Source of the DNA: Streptomyces dangxiongensis
GTDB lineage: Bacteria > Actinomycetota > Actinomycetes > Streptomycetales > Streptomycetaceae
Length of the DNA: 64,000 nucleotides
Assembly (NCBI RefSeq): GCF_003675325.1
Contig: NZ_CP033073.1
Location: 6,324,001 to 6,388,000 of the forward strand
Direction: 5' to 3'
A model generated the notes under the pieces. That model worked only from the letters and a program-made list of their open reading frames with translations, made no database searches and was not told the origin of the DNA. A program made the position numbers and the translations under genes. Positions 10,104 to 34,110 of this stretch are shown here, piece by piece; position 1 is the stretch's first letter, and each line of letters opens with the position of its first letter.

Positions 10104-11138
<1,035 letters not shown>

Positions 11139-11146
11139 GTCCACAG

Positions 11147-11169
11147 ACCTTACGGCCCGGCACTGACAG
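11147..11169 (-). promoter_or_regulatory. PafBC-type (RecA-NDp-like) promoter of the RecB-like nuclease
   Basis: On the minus strand CTGTCAGTG (11169-11161), 8 bp, then TAAGGT (11152-11147) match TTGTCRGTG-N8-TANNNT with one mismatch and exact spacing. The -10 lies about 8 bp before ATG 11138. This is the promoter class activated by PafBC after DNA damage in mycobacteria; pafB and pafC are in this window. Confidence 0.6.
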
Positions 11170-27038: not shown

Positions 27039-27992
27039 ATGGCCATTGCCAAGGCCGAGCGGCTGATGAACCTCGCGCTGTGCCTGCTCGGCACGCGACG
27101 GCCGCTCAGCAAGCGCGAGCTGCGCGCGTCCATCGAGGCCTACCTCGAAGCGGGGAGCGACGACTCCTTCAACCGCATGTTCGAGCGGGACAAGGACGAC
27201 CTGCGCGAGCTGGGACTCGTCATCGAGACCGTCGAGAACATCGAGGGCGAGGTCGGCTACCTCGCCCGCCGCGACAGCAACCGCCTGCCCCCCATCACCC
27301 TGGACGCCGAGGAGGCCGCCGCCCTCGGCCTCGCCGCCAAGGTCTGGCAGCAGGCCCGGCTGGCCGGCGCGGCCAGCGGAGCCCTGCAGAAACTGCGCGC
27401 GGCGGGCCTGCCCGAGGACGTCGACCCGTACGAGGCGCACAGCGCCCTGGAACCGCGCATCCCGGTGCACGAGGCCGCCTTCGAGCCGCTGATGCTGGCC
27501 CTGCGCGACCGCCGCCCGGTCCTCTTCGAGTACCGCAAGGCCTCCGCCGCCCGTCCCGAGCCCCGGCACGTCGAGCCGTGGGCGCTGGAGTGCTGGCGCG
27601 GCCACTGGTACCTGGCCGGCTGGGACCGCGACCGGGGCGCCGAGCGCGTCTTCCGCCTCTCCCGGATCACCGGCAGGGTCCGCTCCCGGGGCACGGGTTT
27701 CACCGCTCCCGTGCCGGACGTCGTCACCGTGCGGGAGACCGTCGCGGGCTGGGCCGGCGAGATCGCCGACCGCTCGGCGCTGATCCGGCTGCGCTCCGGC
27801 GCCGGGTACCCCCTTCGGGCGAAGGCCACCGCGGTCCGCGAACTCGGCGACGGCTGGGACGAGTTGGAGATTCCGTACGGGCACGGCCTGGACGCCTGGC
27901 TGGTGGAGTTCGGACCGGACGTGGTCGTGCTGGAGCCGGCCGAGCTGCGCGCGGACGTGGTGGACCGGCTGCGTGCCGTGGCCAAGGGCTGA
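27039..27992 (+). CDS. pafB: PafB, WYL-domain transcriptional regulator
   Basis: 317 residues. An N-terminal winged HTH (about 1-65, AERLMNLALCLLGTRRPLSKRELR) is followed by a WYL domain (about 150-230) and the WCX C-terminal extension. In mycobacteria PafB acts with PafC to activate the LexA-independent DNA-damage response, and the pair is named for linkage to pafA. pafC starts 14 bp downstream, so the two are cotranscribed. Candidate targets with the matching promoter motif lie at 11138 and 31303. Confidence 0.92.
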   Translation: MAIAKAERLMNLALCLLGTRRPLSKRELRASIEAYLEAGSDDSFNRMFERDKDDLRELGLVIETVENIEGEVGYLARRDSNRLPPITLDAEEAAALGLAAKVWQQARLAGAASGALQKLRAAGLPEDVDPYEAHSALEPRIPVHEAAFEPLMLALRDRRPVLFEYRKASAARPEPRHVEPWALECWRGHWYLAGWDRDRGAERVFRLSRITGRVRSRGTGFTAPVPDVVTVRETVAGWAGEIADRSALIRLRSGAGYPLRAKATAVRELGDGWDELEIPYGHGLDAWLVEFGPDVVVLEPAELRADVVDRLRAVAKG

Positions 27993-28006: not shown

Positions 28007-29038
28007 GTGGCAGGCAAACCGGCCAGGCCCGTGAACGCCATCGACCAGACCCGGCGGATGCTCTCGCTGGTGACCTATCTCCGGGAGCGCCCCGGCGCCC
28101 GGATCGCCGACGTGGCGCGGGCCTTCGGCATCACCGAGGACGAGCTGGTCGCCGACCTCGACCTGCTGCCCATGTGCGGCACCAGCTTCCGCGGCGGCGA
28201 CCTGCTGGACATCGACACCGACGGCGAGCGCATCTGGTGGCACAACCCGGCCGCGCTCGGCGAGGAGGCGGCCGAGCCGCTCCGGCTCGCCGCCGACGAG
28301 GCCACGGCCCTGCTGGTCGCCGCCCGCGCGGTGTCGACGCTGCCCGGCCTCCGGGAGGGTGATCGCCAGGCCCTGCTGCGGGCCACGGCCAAGGTCGAGA
28401 CCGCGGCCGGTGAAGCCGCCGGGGCCAGCTCCCGCCTGTCGGTGACCTTCGAGTCCGAGGGCGGGGTCTTCGCCGACGTCGACCGGGCGATCTCCGAGCG
28501 CCGCCGGCTCTGGATCCGCTACTACTCCCCGGCGCGCGACGAGATCACCGAGCGCGAGATCGACCCCATCCGCCTGGTCAGCGTCGGCCACACCTATGTG
28601 GAGGCGTGGTGCCGCCGCTCCGAGGCCCGGCGCACCTTCCGGCTCGACCGGGTCGCCGAGATCAGGATCCTCGACGAGCCGTCCGCCCCGCCCGAGGTGG
28701 AGCTGCGCGACCTCTCCGAGGCCCTGGTGCAGCCGGCCGCCGAGGACCCGGAGGTCGTGGTCGAGGTCGGCCCCGGCGGTCGCTGGGTCGCCGAGTACTA
28801 CCCGCACGACAGCGCCGATGAGCTTCCCGACGGCGGACTGCGTATCACTCTGCGCACCCCCGACCCGGCCTCCCTGCGCCGGCTGGCCCTGCGGCTCGGC
28901 CGCGACGGCCGGATCGTCTCCCCGTCCGAGCTGGCCGAGAGCGCCCGCCGCGCGGCCCGCGAGGCCCTGGCCGCGTACGACGGCCCGGCGGGCGCGGTGC
29001 GGGGCGCCGGTGACGGCCGGGACCTGAGTCCCGCGTGA
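28007..29038 (+). CDS. pafC: PafC, WYL-domain transcriptional regulator
   Basis: 343 residues from GTG 28007 (GGGAGCAGGA site). HTH at about 10-60 (RMLSLVTYLRERPGARIADVARAFGITEDELVADLDLL), WYL domain at about 150-230 (ISERRRLWIRYYSPARDEITEREIDPIRLV) and WCX domain to the end. It is the partner of PafB; WYL proteins of this group sense single-stranded DNA in mycobacteria. A longer in-frame reading from 26957 only adds antisense-like Arg/Gly sequence and was discarded. Confidence 0.92.
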   Translation: MAGKPARPVNAIDQTRRMLSLVTYLRERPGARIADVARAFGITEDELVADLDLLPMCGTSFRGGDLLDIDTDGERIWWHNPAALGEEAAEPLRLAADEATALLVAARAVSTLPGLREGDRQALLRATAKVETAAGEAAGASSRLSVTFESEGGVFADVDRAISERRRLWIRYYSPARDEITEREIDPIRLVSVGHTYVEAWCRRSEARRTFRLDRVAEIRILDEPSAPPEVELRDLSEALVQPAAEDPEVVVEVGPGGRWVAEYYPHDSADELPDGGLRITLRTPDPASLRRLALRLGRDGRIVSPSELAESARRAAREALAAYDGPAGAVRGAGDGRDLSPA

Positions 29039-29887: not shown

Positions 29888-30175
29888 ATGTTCCGCTCCG
29901 GACTTGAGCCGTGGCACCTGCTGCTCCTCGTTCTGGTGATCGTCCTGGTGTTCGGCTCCAAGAAGCTCCCGGACATGGCGCGCTCGCTCGGCAAGTCCGC
30001 GCGCATCCTCAAGAGCGAGGCCAAGGCGATGAAGGACGACGGCAAGCAGCCCGAGGGCACCGCCCAGTCCACCGCCGACGACCCCGCTTCGCCTCAGCGC
30101 ACGATCCAGGCCGCCCCAGGTGACGTGACCAGCTCCCGCCCGGTCACCGAGCCGACGGACACGACCCAGCGCTGA
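29888..30175 (+). CDS. tatA: TatA, twin-arginine translocase subunit
   Basis: 95 residues. A single N-terminal transmembrane helix ([13 protein letters not shown]), the hinge [11 protein letters not shown] and an amphipathic helix ([17 protein letters not shown]) are followed by a polar tail. TatA oligomers form the export pore for folded proteins. It is 47 bp upstream of tatC, in one operon. The start ATG follows GGTGAAG. Confidence 0.95.
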
Positions 30176-30222: not shown

Positions 30223-31167
30223 TTGCTCAAGCCTGCCCGCAAAAAGGAGAGGGATCCCGAGGGGCGGATGCCGCTCGGGGATCACTTGCGTGAACTGCGC
30301 AACCGGCTCGCCAAGGCTGTCCTGGCGATCCTCGCCGTCACGATCGTCTCGGCCTTCTTCTACCGGGACATCATCGAAGTCATCACCCGGCCGATGCTGG
30401 ACGAGATCGGCTGCCACCAGTCCTTCGGGGAACTGGCCGACGCCAAGAACGTCCGCTGTGCGCATATCACCGTCAGCGGCCTGCTGGGCGCGTTCAACCT
30501 GGCCCTGAAGGTCTCCCTCATGTCGGGCATCGTGCTCGCGTCGCCGGTCTGGCTCTACCAGCTCTGGGCGTTCGTCGCACCGGGCCTGCATCGCGGCGAG
30601 AAGAAGTACGCCTACGCGTTCGTCGTCTTCGGTTTCCCGCTCTTCCTCGGCGGCGGCTACCTCGCGTTCCACATGCTGCCCACCACGGCGAAGTTCATGA
30701 TCGAGCTCACGCCCGACGGCGCTGAGAACCTGTTGCCGCTGGACGACCTGCTGGACCTCATCACCCGCATGATCGTCGTCTTCGGCCTCGCCTTCGAGAT
30801 GCCGCTGCTGCTGGTCATGCTGAACCTCACCGGCGTCCTCTCCGGCCGGCGCATGCGGGGCTGGTGGCGCGGCATGGTCGTCGGCATCACCGCCTTCGCG
30901 GCCGTGGCCACGCCCAGCCCCGACCCGATGACGATGCTGGCGCTGGCGGCGCCGATCTGGGCGCTCTACTTCATCGCCGTGGCCATCGCACTGCTCAACG
31001 ACCGGCGCCGGGCCCGCCGCGAGGCCGCCGGCCCCGCCGACGACGAGGCTTCCGAGCTGGACCTCACGCCCGAGGACATCGGCGCGGTCGAGCCCGTCCC
31101 GGCCGCCCGGGCGCTGCCCGAGCAGACGAGCACCGACCGGGTCAACGGCTACGACGACGTGACCTAG
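30223..31167 (+). CDS. tatC: TatC, twin-arginine translocase receptor subunit
   Basis: 314 residues beginning at TTG 30223, with GAGG 9 nt upstream; ATGs further in would remove the conserved N-terminal region. The conserved MPLGDHLRELRNRL lies before helix 1, and six transmembrane segments follow (SPVWLYQLWAFVAPGL, FEMPLLLVMLNLTGVL). TatC recognises the twin-arginine signal. The C-terminal tail is acidic. A large terminator follows. Confidence 0.95.
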   Translation: MLKPARKKERDPEGRMPLGDHLRELRNRLAKAVLAILAVTIVSAFFYRDIIEVITRPMLDEIGCHQSFGELADAKNVRCAHITVSGLLGAFNLALKVSLMSGIVLASPVWLYQLWAFVAPGLHRGEKKYAYAFVVFGFPLFLGGGYLAFHMLPTTAKFMIELTPDGAENLLPLDDLLDLITRMIVVFGLAFEMPLLLVMLNLTGVLSGRRMRGWWRGMVVGITAFAAVATPSPDPMTMLALAAPIWALYFIAVAIALLNDRRRARREAAGPADDEASELDLTPEDIGAVEPVPAARALPEQTSTDRVNGYDDVT

Positions 31168-31186
31168 CCCGCACCCGACCAGGCCT

Positions 31187-31226
31187 GATGCCCCCGTCCC
31201 CGGAGCCCTCCGGGGGCGGGGGCATC
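31187..31226 (+). terminator. terminator after tatC
   Basis: A nearly perfect 18-bp stem from GATGCCCCCG to CGGGGGCATC with a 4-nt GCCC loop and one G-U pair, followed by CGTCTTT, lies 19 bp after the tatC stop. Confidence 0.85.
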
Positions 31227-31269
31227 CGTCTTTGCCGATCAGCCCACGTTCCGGATAATGATCGTCCTG

Positions 31270-31292
31270 TTGTCAGTGGGGCCCGGTACGCT
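31270..31292 (+). promoter_or_regulatory. PafBC-type (RecA-NDp) promoter of the helicase gene
   Basis: TTGTCAGTG (31270-31278), 8 bp, then TACGCT (31287-31292) is an exact match to TTGTCRGTG-N8-TANNNT, the LexA-independent DNA-damage promoter that PafBC activates in mycobacteria. The -10 ends 10 bp before the ATG at 31303, so the transcript would have little or no leader. Confidence 0.7.
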
Positions 31293-31302
31293 CGAAAGCA
31301 CG

Positions 31303-34110
31303 ATGACAGAGGACCTCTCCCCGGCCGAGCGGTACGCGGCAGCCCGCAGGCGGGCTGCCGAACAGGCCACCGCGCTCGCCTCCTTCCGCGAGATGTACGA
31401 CTTCGGCCTCGACCCCTTCCAGATCGAGGCCTGCCAGGCACTCGAAGCGGGGAAGGGTGTGCTGGTCGCCGCCCCCACCGGCTCGGGCAAGACGATCGTG
31501 GGCGAGTTCGCCGTCCACCTCGCCCTCCAGCAGGGCAAGAAGTGCTTCTACACGACCCCCATCAAGGCCCTGTCGAACCAGAAGTACGCGGACCTGTGCC
31601 GGCGGTACGGCGCCGCGAAGGTGGGTCTGCTCACCGGCGACAACAGCGTGAACTCCGACGCCCCGGTGGTCGTGATGACCACCGAGGTGCTGCGGAACAT
31701 GCTGTACGCCGGCTCGCGGACCCTCCTCGGTCTCGGCCACGTGGTCATGGACGAGGTGCACTACCTCTCCGACCGCTTCCGCGGCGCCGTCTGGGAGGAA
31801 GTGATCATCCACCTGCCCGAGTCGGTGACCCTGGTCTCGCTCTCCGCGACCGTGTCCAACGCCGAGGAGTTCGGTGACTGGCTGGACACCGTCCGCGGCG
31901 ACACCGAGGTGATCGTCTCCGAGCACCGGCCCGTGCCGCTGTTCCAGCACGTGCTCGCCGGACGCCGGATGTACGACCTGTTCGAGGAGGGCGAGGGCCA
32001 CAAGAAGGCCGTCAACCCCGATCTCGTCCGCCTCGCCCGGATGGAGGCGACACGGCCGTCCTTCCAGGACCGCAGGCGCGGCCGGTCGATGCGCGAGGCC
32101 GATCGCGAGCGGGAGCGCCGACAGCGCTCGCGGGTGTGGACGCCGAGCCGTCCCGAGGTCATCGAGCGCCTGGACTCCGAGGGCCTGCTCCCGGCCATCA
32201 CCTTCATCTTCAGCCGCGCCGCCTGCGAGGCCGCCGTCCAGCAGTGCCTGCACGCCGGCCTCCGGCTCAACGACGAGGACGCCCGGGAGCGGGTCCGCGC
32301 CCTGGTCGCGGAACGCACCGCCTCGATCCCGCCGGAGGACCTGCACGTCCTCGGCTACTACGAGTGGCTGGAGGGCCTGGAGCGGGGCATCGCCGCCCAC
32401 CACGCGGGCATGCTGCCGACCTTCAAGGAGGTCGTGGAGGAGCTGTTCGTACGCGGCCTGGTCAAGGCCGTGTTCGCCACCGAGACCCTCGCGCTCGGCA
32501 TCAACATGCCCGCCCGCTCGGTCGTGCTGGAGAAGCTCGTCAAGTGGAACGGCGAGCAGCACGCCGACATCACTCCCGGTGAGTACACCCAGCTAACGGG
32601 CCGGGCCGGCCGCCGCGGCATCGACGTGGAGGGCCACGCGGTCGTCCTCTGGCAGCGCGGCAGCAGTCCCGAGCACCTCGCCGGTCTCGCGGGCACCCGC
32701 ACGTACCCGCTGCGCTCCAGCTTCAAGCCGTCGTACAACATGGCGGTCAACCTGGTCGAGCAGTTCGGCCGGCACCGCTCGCGCGAACTGCTGGAGACCT
32801 CCTTCGCGCAGTTCCAGGCCGACAAGTCGGTCGTCGGCATCTCCCGGCAGGTGCAGCGCAACGAGGAGGGCCTGGAGGGCTACAAGGCCTCCATGACCTG
32901 CCACCTCGGCGACTTCGAGGAGTACGCGCGGCTGCGCCGCGAACTGAAGGACCGGGAGACGGAGCTGGCCCGGCAGGGCGCCAACCAGCGGCGCGCCGAG
33001 GCCGCCGTCGCCCTGGAGAGGCTCAAGGCCGGCGATGTCATCCACGTGCCGACGGGCAAGTACGCCGGTCTGGCCCTGGTGCTGGACCCCGGCCTGCCCG
33101 CCGGCCGCGCGGGCGGCCAGCGCGGCTTCGAGCACCAGGACGGTCCGCGCCCGCTGGTGCTGACCGCGGAGCGGCAGGTCAAGCGGCTGGCCTCGATGGA
33201 CTTCCCGGTACCGGTCGAGCCGCTGGACCGGATGCGGATTCCGAAGTCCTTCAATCCCCGCTCGCCGCAGTCCCGTCGGGACCTCGCCTCCGCGCTGCGC
33301 ACCAAGGCCGGGCACGTCCCGCCGGAGCGGGCGCGCAAGCAGCGGTCGCAGGCCGCCGACGACCGCGAGATCGCGCGGCTGCGCACGGCGATCCGTGCGC
33401 ACCCCTGTCACGGCTGCAGCGACCGTGAGGACCACGCCCGGTGGGCCGAGCGTTACCACCGGCTGCTGCGCGACACCTCGCAGCTTGAGCGGCGGATCGA
33501 GGGCCGCACGAACACGATCGCGCGGACCTTCGACCGGATCGTGGCGCTGCTGACCGAGCTGGACTACCTGCGCGGTGACGAGGTCACCGAGCACGGCAAG
33601 CGGCTGGCCCGGCTCTACGGCGAACTGGACCTGCTGGCCAGCGAGTGCCTGCGCGAGCGCGTCTGGGAGGGCCTCGGCCCCGCCGAACTCGCCGCGTGCG
33701 TCTCGGCGTTGGTGTACGAGTCCCGGACGGGCGACGACGCGCTGGCGCCGAAGCTGCCGTCGGGCGGGGCGAAGGCCGCGCTCGGTGACATGGTCAGGAT
33801 CTGGGGCCGGCTCGACGCCCTGGAGGAGGAGTTCCGGATCAGCCAGACCGAGGGGGTCGGCCAGCGGGAGCCGGACCTCGGGTTCGCCTGGGCGGCGTAC
33901 ATGTGGGCGACGGGCAACGGTCTCGACGAGGTGCTGCGCGAGGCGGACATGCCCGCCGGTGACTTCGTGCGGTGGTGCAAGCAGGTCATCGACGTACTGG
34001 GGCAGATCTCGGCGGCGGCTCCCACGGAGGGGTCGACCGTGGCGAAGAACGCGCGCAAGGCGGTGGACCAGCTACTGCGCGGCGTGGTGGCCTACTCGTC
34101 GGTGGGGTGA
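31303..34110 (+). CDS. HelY/Mtr4-type DExH-box helicase
   Basis: 935 residues. Two RecA domains carry Walker A APTGSGKT, motif II MDEVHYL (DEVH), motif III SLSATVSN and motif VI QLTGRAGRRG. A charged insert (about 255-290) and an arch/DSHCT-like C-terminal region follow. The family resembles Ski2/Mtr4 RNA helicases, and the mycobacterial relative is HelY. ATG 31303 is preferred to the ATG at 31258, because the promoter lies between them. The promoter predicts induction by DNA damage. A strong terminator hairpin follows the gene. Confidence 0.92.
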   Translation: MTEDLSPAERYAAARRRAAEQATALASFREMYDFGLDPFQIEACQALEAGKGVLVAAPTGSGKTIVGEFAVHLALQQGKKCFYTTPIKALSNQKYADLCRRYGAAKVGLLTGDNSVNSDAPVVVMTTEVLRNMLYAGSRTLLGLGHVVMDEVHYLSDRFRGAVWEEVIIHLPESVTLVSLSATVSNAEEFGDWLDTVRGDTEVIVSEHRPVPLFQHVLAGRRMYDLFEEGEGHKKAVNPDLVRLARMEATRPSFQDRRRGRSMREADRERERRQRSRVWTPSRPEVIERLDSEGLLPAITFIFSRAACEAAVQQCLHAGLRLNDEDARERVRALVAERTASIPPEDLHVLGYYEWLEGLERGIAAHHAGMLPTFKEVVEELFVRGLVKAVFATETLALGINMPARSVVLEKLVKWNGEQHADITPGEYTQLTGRAGRRGIDVEGHAVVLWQRGSSPEHLAGLAGTRTYPLRSSFKPSYNMAVNLVEQFGRHRSRELLETSFAQFQADKSVVGISRQVQRNEEGLEGYKASMTCHLGDFEEYARLRRELKDRETELARQGANQRRAEAAVALERLKAGDVIHVPTGKYAGLALVLDPGLPAGRAGGQRGFEHQDGPRPLVLTAERQVKRLASMDFPVPVEPLDRMRIPKSFNPRSPQSRRDLASALRTKAGHVPPERARKQRSQAADDREIARLRTAIRAHPCHGCSDREDHARWAERYHRLLRDTSQLERRIEGRTNTIARTFDRIVALLTELDYLRGDEVTEHGKRLARLYGELDLLASECLRERVWEGLGPAELAACVSALVYESRTGDDALAPKLPSGGAKAALGDMVRIWGRLDALEEEFRISQTEGVGQREPDLGFAWAAYMWATGNGLDEVLREADMPAGDFVRWCKQVIDVLGQISAAAPTEGSTVAKNARKAVDQLLRGVVAYSSVG

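Follow-up and report, generated by a model that had tools for sequence, protein, structure and literature searches.

A PafBC-type box within a candidate two-input promoter of the helicase gene helY in Streptomyces dangxiongensis

A first-pass annotation of a 64-kb stretch of the Streptomyces dangxiongensis genome (hereafter, the window) had placed a DNA-damage promoter of the PafBC type directly in front of helY, and had thereby tied a helicase usually seen as an RNA enzyme to the DNA-damage response. This raises the question of which stress signals the helY promoter is built to receive. We consider it probable (about 0.65) that the promoter is composite, with a PafBC box flanked upstream by a WblC-like element and downstream by the -10 element that both would share, and that it yields a near-leaderless mRNA. 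For the searches we used the motif TTGTCRGTG-N8-TANNNT, which we take to be the RecA-NDp (PafBC) consensus; its letters are those of the first-pass annotation.

Promoter elements and gene neighbourhood of helY

As listed in Table 1, the helY promoter region contains a -26 box and a -10 element. The full motif, TTGTCAGTG-N8-TACGCT, spans 31270-31292, keeps the fixed N8 spacing exactly and was the only exact match found in the window by pattern search, which confirms both the consensus match and its position as first annotated. From base composition, about 0.001 exact matches would be expected in the window and 0.14 in the genome. At up to two mismatches the window contained 5 matches, compared with 1.32 expected from shuffles. 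The motif is independently supported by the site before the recA gene of the same genome, which reads TTGTCAGTGGCAGGCGTTAGCGT, and by the enrichment of repair genes behind such sites (see below).

Ten nucleotides separate the -10 (31292) from the helY ATG (31303). In S. coelicolor the distance from the -10 to the transcription start is usually 7–8 bp (PMC7157823). A start at this distance would leave a leader of 3–4 nt, as predicted from the geometry; the almost leaderless geometry proposed earlier fits this and is typical of this promoter class. No TTGACA-like -35 was found at 16–18 bp from TACGCT, where the slot reads CGTCCT/GTCCTG. A promoter scan returned a single hit at 31232-31259, with a different -10 (GATAAT). 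An in-frame ATG at 31258, which would place the box inside the gene, was rejected as the helY start, being not conserved among 80 Streptomyces loci. As a separate observation, CCGG in the spacer (31279-31286), just 5′ of the -10 (columns -20, -18, and -17), is nearly invariant in Streptomycetaceae helY promoters; neither activator considered below explains this constancy.

Table 1. Genes and promoter elements in the window (positions are those of the window).
Feature	Position	Strand	Basis or remark
Second likely PafBC-type box, CTGTCAGTG-N8-TAAGGT	11147..11169	-	1 mismatch; 8 nt 5′ of ATG
pafB (WYL + WCX domains)	27039..27992	+	structures 7p5x_AY, 9fnd_X, 6sj9_A (PafBC), E 2e-57 to 2e-53; Pfam WYL, WCX
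pafC (HTH_PafC, WYL, WCX)	28007..29038	+	7p5x_AX PafC E 4e-52, 6sj9_A E 4e-41; Pfam HTH_PafC
tatA-like ORF	29888..30175	+	read by eye
tatC	30223..31167	+	TIGR00945 above cut-off; Pfam TatC
18-bp G+C-rich hairpin 3′ of tatC, likely terminator	31187..31226	+	RNA fold
GATAAT, candidate WblC/WhiB7 element	31254..31259	+	5/6 to GAAAWY; inside conserved A/T block 31254-31263
-35 slot CGTCCT at 18-bp spacer; poor -35	31263..31268	+	2/4 specified letters of TKGMNN
PafBC-type (RecA-NDp) -26 box TTGTCAGTG	31270..31278	+	exact consensus match
-10 element TACGCT	31287..31292	+	TANNNT
Predicted transcription start	31299..31300	+	7–8 bp past -10; inferred from distances in PMC7157823
helY, Ski2/Mtr4-type helicase, 935 aa, DSHCT domain	31303..34110	+	Pfam DEAD, Helicase_C, MTR4-like stalk, DSHCT

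The closest solved structures to HelY were Mtr4/DOB1 (E 2e-98). Between tatC and helY, RNA folding of 31168-31240 gave -45.8 kcal/mol (z -4.68). A simple terminator scan found none, and the tatC-helY hairpin has no T run. Given this hairpin, helY looks like its own transcription unit. The pafB and pafC genes are truly encoded upstream, with the end of pafC (29038) 2.2 kb from the box; the GTG start of pafC was read by eye and the structure search used 28010-29035. Yet the closeness of helY to pafBC loses its weight as regulatory evidence, because the pafC-tat-helY order is old and common to other families. There, pafC is found no more than 10 kb upstream of helY in 93 of the 96 pairs that we tabulated (the remaining three comprise one exception and two pairs split over contigs), and the 92 of those genomes in which the helY upstream region was scored include none with an exact or 1-mismatch box. 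Since the order is kept in genomes that lack the box, we regard the proximity as inherited gene order.

PafBC-type sites in the genome and across Streptomyces

A search of the whole S. dangxiongensis genome (8.16 Mb) revealed 27 exact matches to the motif, compared with 0 for the reversed-pattern control. Two of them are identical copies near both ends, leaving 26 distinct sites. According to family searches, half of these (13) precede genes of DNA repair, replication or dNTP metabolism, namely recA, pcrA, radA, dnaX, ogt, uvrB, uvrA, ruvC, and ung, together with genes for an AlkZ-like glycosylase, a dGTPase, a RecD2-type helicase, and a RarA-like ATPase. One further site is that of helY, and the other 12 stand before genes for WGR, SWIM, and DUF4253 proteins, an ECF-type sigma factor, a GmrSD_N protein, hydrolases, and unknowns; several family assignments fell below curated cut-offs, partly since the locus ended inside the gene. 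The helY box is therefore a member of a genome-wide class that marks recA, uvrA, uvrB, ruvC, radA, ung and others, in agreement with its initial assignment. When a first letter other than T was allowed in the box, the genome gave 24 matches vs. 0 for the control.

The short distance between -10 and start codon proved to be shared by most of the sites. At 20 of the 27, a frame of 100 codons or more begins with ATG or GTG 6–10 nt past the -10, compared with 5.9% of background positions, which indicates that the near-leaderless layout characterizes the class; two of these 20 sites are uncertain, one for a broken frame (L003) and one for another frame (L005). Applied after any TANNNT, the same rule held in 29/116 cases with the sites included and in 9/89 without them. 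Such near-leaderless mRNAs from PafBC-type promoters may help repair genes to stay translated under altered initiation.

Several individual sites deserve mention. The gene behind the second box in the window (10104-11138, minus strand) encodes a PD-(D/E)XK nuclease and, judged from its promoter, is likely a second damage-response gene in this stretch. At L003 (G000:C2:2049417-2052439), a PafBC-type box stands 9 nt 5′ of an ATG, but the helicase-like frame that follows breaks near the Walker A motif; a Pfam search with this piece gave no match, and the break may be either a sequencing error or a true frameshift. Boxes at L016, L013, and L002 precede genes for GmrSD_N (restriction-like), SUKH-4, and WGR-domain proteins, respectively, which suggests that defence or damage-sensing genes may belong to the regulon. 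The sigma factor behind the L005 box is of the ECF type (SigX5 family) and could possibly act as a relay to a second regulon.

The class reaches well beyond this genome. All 101 Streptomyces genomes searched contained exact sites, 9–44 in each, compared with 0–2 control matches per genome (9 summed). For the eight genomes behind named loci the range was 9–40 and the control 0, with 18 sites in S. griseus and 17 in S. zaomyceticus. From these genomes, a Streptomyces-wide PafBC-type regulon is strongly supported in silico. In a 2022 study of S. venezuelae, an initial search did not recover the mycobacterial PafBC motif as conserved, and a RecA/LexA-independent damage response in Streptomyces was, per that source, still to be shown (PMC9380542). 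Promoters of this class were already known from Streptomyces, since a RecA-NDp promoter had been described in front of SCO6735 of S. coelicolor (PMC5087735). What appears to be new is the extent of the class in the genus and the case of helY. In searches of the literature we found no report linking PafBC with helY, none of WhiB7/WblC and PafBC sharing helY, and none of helY induction by DNA damage in Streptomyces. The per-genome counts provide a ready list of candidate PafBC targets.

Variants of the box differed in abundance. The form with a first letter other than T was common (61/61 genomes), whereas the GAG variant was rare, at 75 matches over 61 genomes against a single one in the control. 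Across the class, PafC matches were detected in 193 of 196 genomes, yet 48 of the 196 had no exact box anywhere, so that the number of boxes does not simply follow PafC; the presence of PafC is too even for a correlation with motif counts to be obtained. Two genomes of one family (f17), G153 and G135, contained 119 and 63 exact matches, and many of the copies listed for G135 share the sequence TTGTCGGTGCCCGCCCGTAGGGT, which looks as though the box were carried on a repeated element.

Conservation of the box and of the A/T block upstream of helY

The first-pass annotation had proposed a scan of helY orthologues and regarded absence of conservation as evidence against its claim. Our scan showed the exact motif at one fixed place, -33 from the ATG, in 53 of 80 named Streptomyces helY loci. 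The other 27 were degenerate: in the same register, 11 had one, 10 two, 2 three, and 1 four mismatches, and in the remaining three the motif was displaced by a 1-nt indel. The box is worn in the S. griseus, S. noursei, and S. zaomyceticus types (TGTCAGAGG or worse), and strains of the S. griseus and S. zaomyceticus types retain the site class elsewhere in the genome. A looser, ATGAC-anchored pattern had matches in 246 of the 296 Streptomyces genomes (control 0); this pattern is not bound to helY, and at least two of the listed matches are not at helY.

In an alignment of 125 Streptomycetaceae helY promoters, 121 had TGTC in register and 122 had TANNNT. After thinning to 69 sequences, the information per column amounted to 1.70 bits for TGTC, 1.50 for the -10, 0.71 for the A/T block, and 0.23 for the distant flank, and TGTC-R-G-N-G was among the most constrained columns. 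For the sister genera of Streptomycetaceae we examined 40 of the 93 genomes of other genera, 15 of which had a clear aligned start and entered the alignment. Their 40 helY promoters gave no exact match, 11 with one and 8 with two mismatches (within 160 nt), and some of these boxes stand ahead of an earlier ATG. Outside the family, the 92 scored genomes yielded none exact, none with one mismatch, and three with two, while shuffles predicted 0.1 with two and 2.15 with three mismatches; the analysis covered 110 of the 177 class genomes outside Streptomyces, each with a listed N-terminal match. A TANNNT 5–12 nt before an in-frame start was nonetheless present in 80 of 110 helY genes outside the family (raw count). 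As this layout occurs there without the box, the near-leaderless start would be the older feature, to which the box was added, or with which it was kept, in Streptomycetaceae.

Upstream of the box lies a second conserved feature. WblC promoters are described as GAAAWY, 3 bp, a weak -35, 16–19 bp, and TANNNT (PMC7157823). The helY promoter reads GATAAT, 3 bp, the slot CGTCCT, 18 bp, and TACGCT, matching GAAAWY in 5/6 and the slot in 2/4 letters, and the PafBC-type box is nested within the spacer between the slot and the shared -10. In the helY promoter alignment the A/T content of the block is 6.75/9 vs. 2.59/9 in the flank, and AA occupies -46,-45 in 108 of 125 Streptomycetaceae promoters. In S. 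dangxiongensis the helY block is A/T at 7 of 12 positions, compared with at most 5 of 12 at the other 26 PafBC-type sites. The fit to GAAAWY is poorer in promoters of the S. griseus type and of other genera. Genome-wide, the pattern AAWGATC-N7-TGTC was not enriched (2 matches vs. 1 in the control), so the combination of A/T block and TGTC is not in itself statistically supported. The genome also encodes a candidate WblC, a WhiB protein with the AT-hook KRPRGRPRK (one of nine WhiB matches).

The S. coelicolor helY gene (SCO1631) has been identified by ChIP-seq and RNA-seq as a direct WblC/WhiB7 target, with a 5.1-fold WblC-dependent activation by tetracycline; HelY was enriched on ribosomes under this antibiotic, and deletion of helY raised tetracycline sensitivity twofold (PMC7157823). 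This target status was missed in the first-pass annotation, and the proposed tie of helY to DNA damage can thus describe at most half of its control. WblC control is proven for the S. coelicolor gene, while the A/T block was read in helY promoters other than that of S. coelicolor.

Candidate two-input control of helY

Taken as a composite promoter, the region would work as follows. helY would form a separate transcription unit, read by the housekeeping sigma factor HrdB, whose promoter has a TANNNT -10 but hardly any -35 and would start the transcript some 3 nt ahead of the ATG; two activators, PafBC and WblC, would make up for the missing -35. PafBC, activated by single-stranded DNA, would re-target the HrdB holoenzyme to the -26 box (sigma adaptation) and induce the gene. 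The WblC/WhiB7-like A/T element, located some 33 bp 5′ of the -10, would be the WblC site and would be used under translation-blocking antibiotics. PafBC with single-stranded DNA is known to join the housekeeping holoenzyme, where the HTH of PafB reads the -26 motif and that of PafC contacts sigma domain 4 (PMC11804915); WhiB7/WblC likewise acts together with the housekeeping sigma factor, next to the -35 (PMC7157823). As the reported action of both activators goes through region 4 of this sigma factor, they would act alternatively rather than together at helY; a single -10 without a usable -35 makes an either/or promoter the simplest reading. Such a two-input switch would raise the level of an RNA/ribosome-associated helicase in DNA damage or ribosome stress. 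We are more tentative, at somewhat below even odds, about the full form of this switch, in which WblC and PafBC compete for HrdB region 4 at one -10 and the helicase serves both stresses, perhaps removing RNA:DNA hybrids, or ribosome-mRNA complexes that have stalled, at collisions of transcription, translation, and repair. If true, helY would be a rare case of two sigma-region-4 activators sharing one -10, and how translation stress and DNA damage compete would be directly testable in laboratory streptomycetes.

Simpler accounts would retain only one of the two inputs. The box could confer damage induction alone, the A/T block being a UP-like element and the WblC control of S. coelicolor acting via another site. 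The geometry of the box, which is the same as at recA-type sites, the far stronger constraint on TGTC than on the A/T block (1.70 vs. 0.71 bits), and the imperfect match of the block to GAAAWY all fit this account. We nevertheless consider it unlikely, as SCO1631 is a direct WblC target by two methods, the spacing of the block from the -10 is that published for WblC (PMC7157823), and no block at the other 26 sites is equally A/T-rich. Conversely, WblC alone could matter in practice, with the TGTC box a relic or a feature of the basal promoter and helY deaf to DNA damage. This would agree with the published WblC control (PMC7157823), with the S. griseus-type species in which the box is worn but the gene, the -10, and the A/T block are kept, and with the properties of HelY, a ribosome-associated protein that can unwind RNA and RNA:DNA but not duplexes with a DNA loading strand (PMC8931766). 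Against it stands TGTC-R-G-N-G, which is among the most constrained stretches and marks repair genes genome-wide. Expression of MSMEG_3885, presumably the helY orthologue of M. smegmatis, also bears on this point. M. smegmatis helY was raised by the G-quadruplex ligand BRACO-19 (log2 1.77), together with dnaE2, imuAB, and recQ, although not by TMPyP4 (-0.17) (PMC8931766). We consider control by WblC alone more doubtful still than control by PafBC alone.

Two further explanations are very improbable. That an ordinary HrdB promoter matches the motif by chance might be entertained in view of the many leaderless helY -10 elements without a box outside the family (80/110, raw count), but it was rejected given 27 genome sites vs. 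about 0.14 expected and a control of 0, and it does not account for the fixed position and constraint across Streptomyces. The gene sits among stress genes, and LexA controls recA and ruvC in S. venezuelae (PMC9380542), as might suit an SOS promoter. However, no CGAACN4GTTCG-like site with up to two mismatches occurs between 29955 and 33359, and helY is absent from the table of selected LexA targets in PMC9380542; a LexA box at helY was accordingly rejected. Over the whole window, SOS-box-like matches with up to two mismatches numbered 59 vs. 42.6 expected.

The composite arrangement we favour can be set beside known promoters. It resembles mycobacterial RecA-NDp/PafBC promoters of the recA P1 type in its TGTC-type box near -26, its TANNNT -10, and the lack of a usable -35; in both cases the class drives repair genes and the activator is encoded in the proteasome locus. 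The helY case differs in occurring in Streptomyces, before an RNA helicase gene, and with a conserved upstream A/T block. In contrast to helY, we know of no reported WblC control of SCO6735. The promoter of this S. coelicolor macrodomain protein gene is of the same class and conserved in several species, and the gene is UV-inducible (PMC5087735). M. smegmatis helY is listed among the DNA repair genes induced by BRACO-19 (PMC8931766), whereas the 92 scored genomes of other families carry no box with fewer than two mismatches before helY. Finally, helY is itself one of the S. coelicolor WblC/WhiB7-HrdB promoters, to whose layout its A/T block, weak -35 slot, and 18-bp spacing may correspond; it stands apart from them in that its spacer holds a constrained PafBC-type box and its A/T block agrees with GAAAWY in five of six letters.
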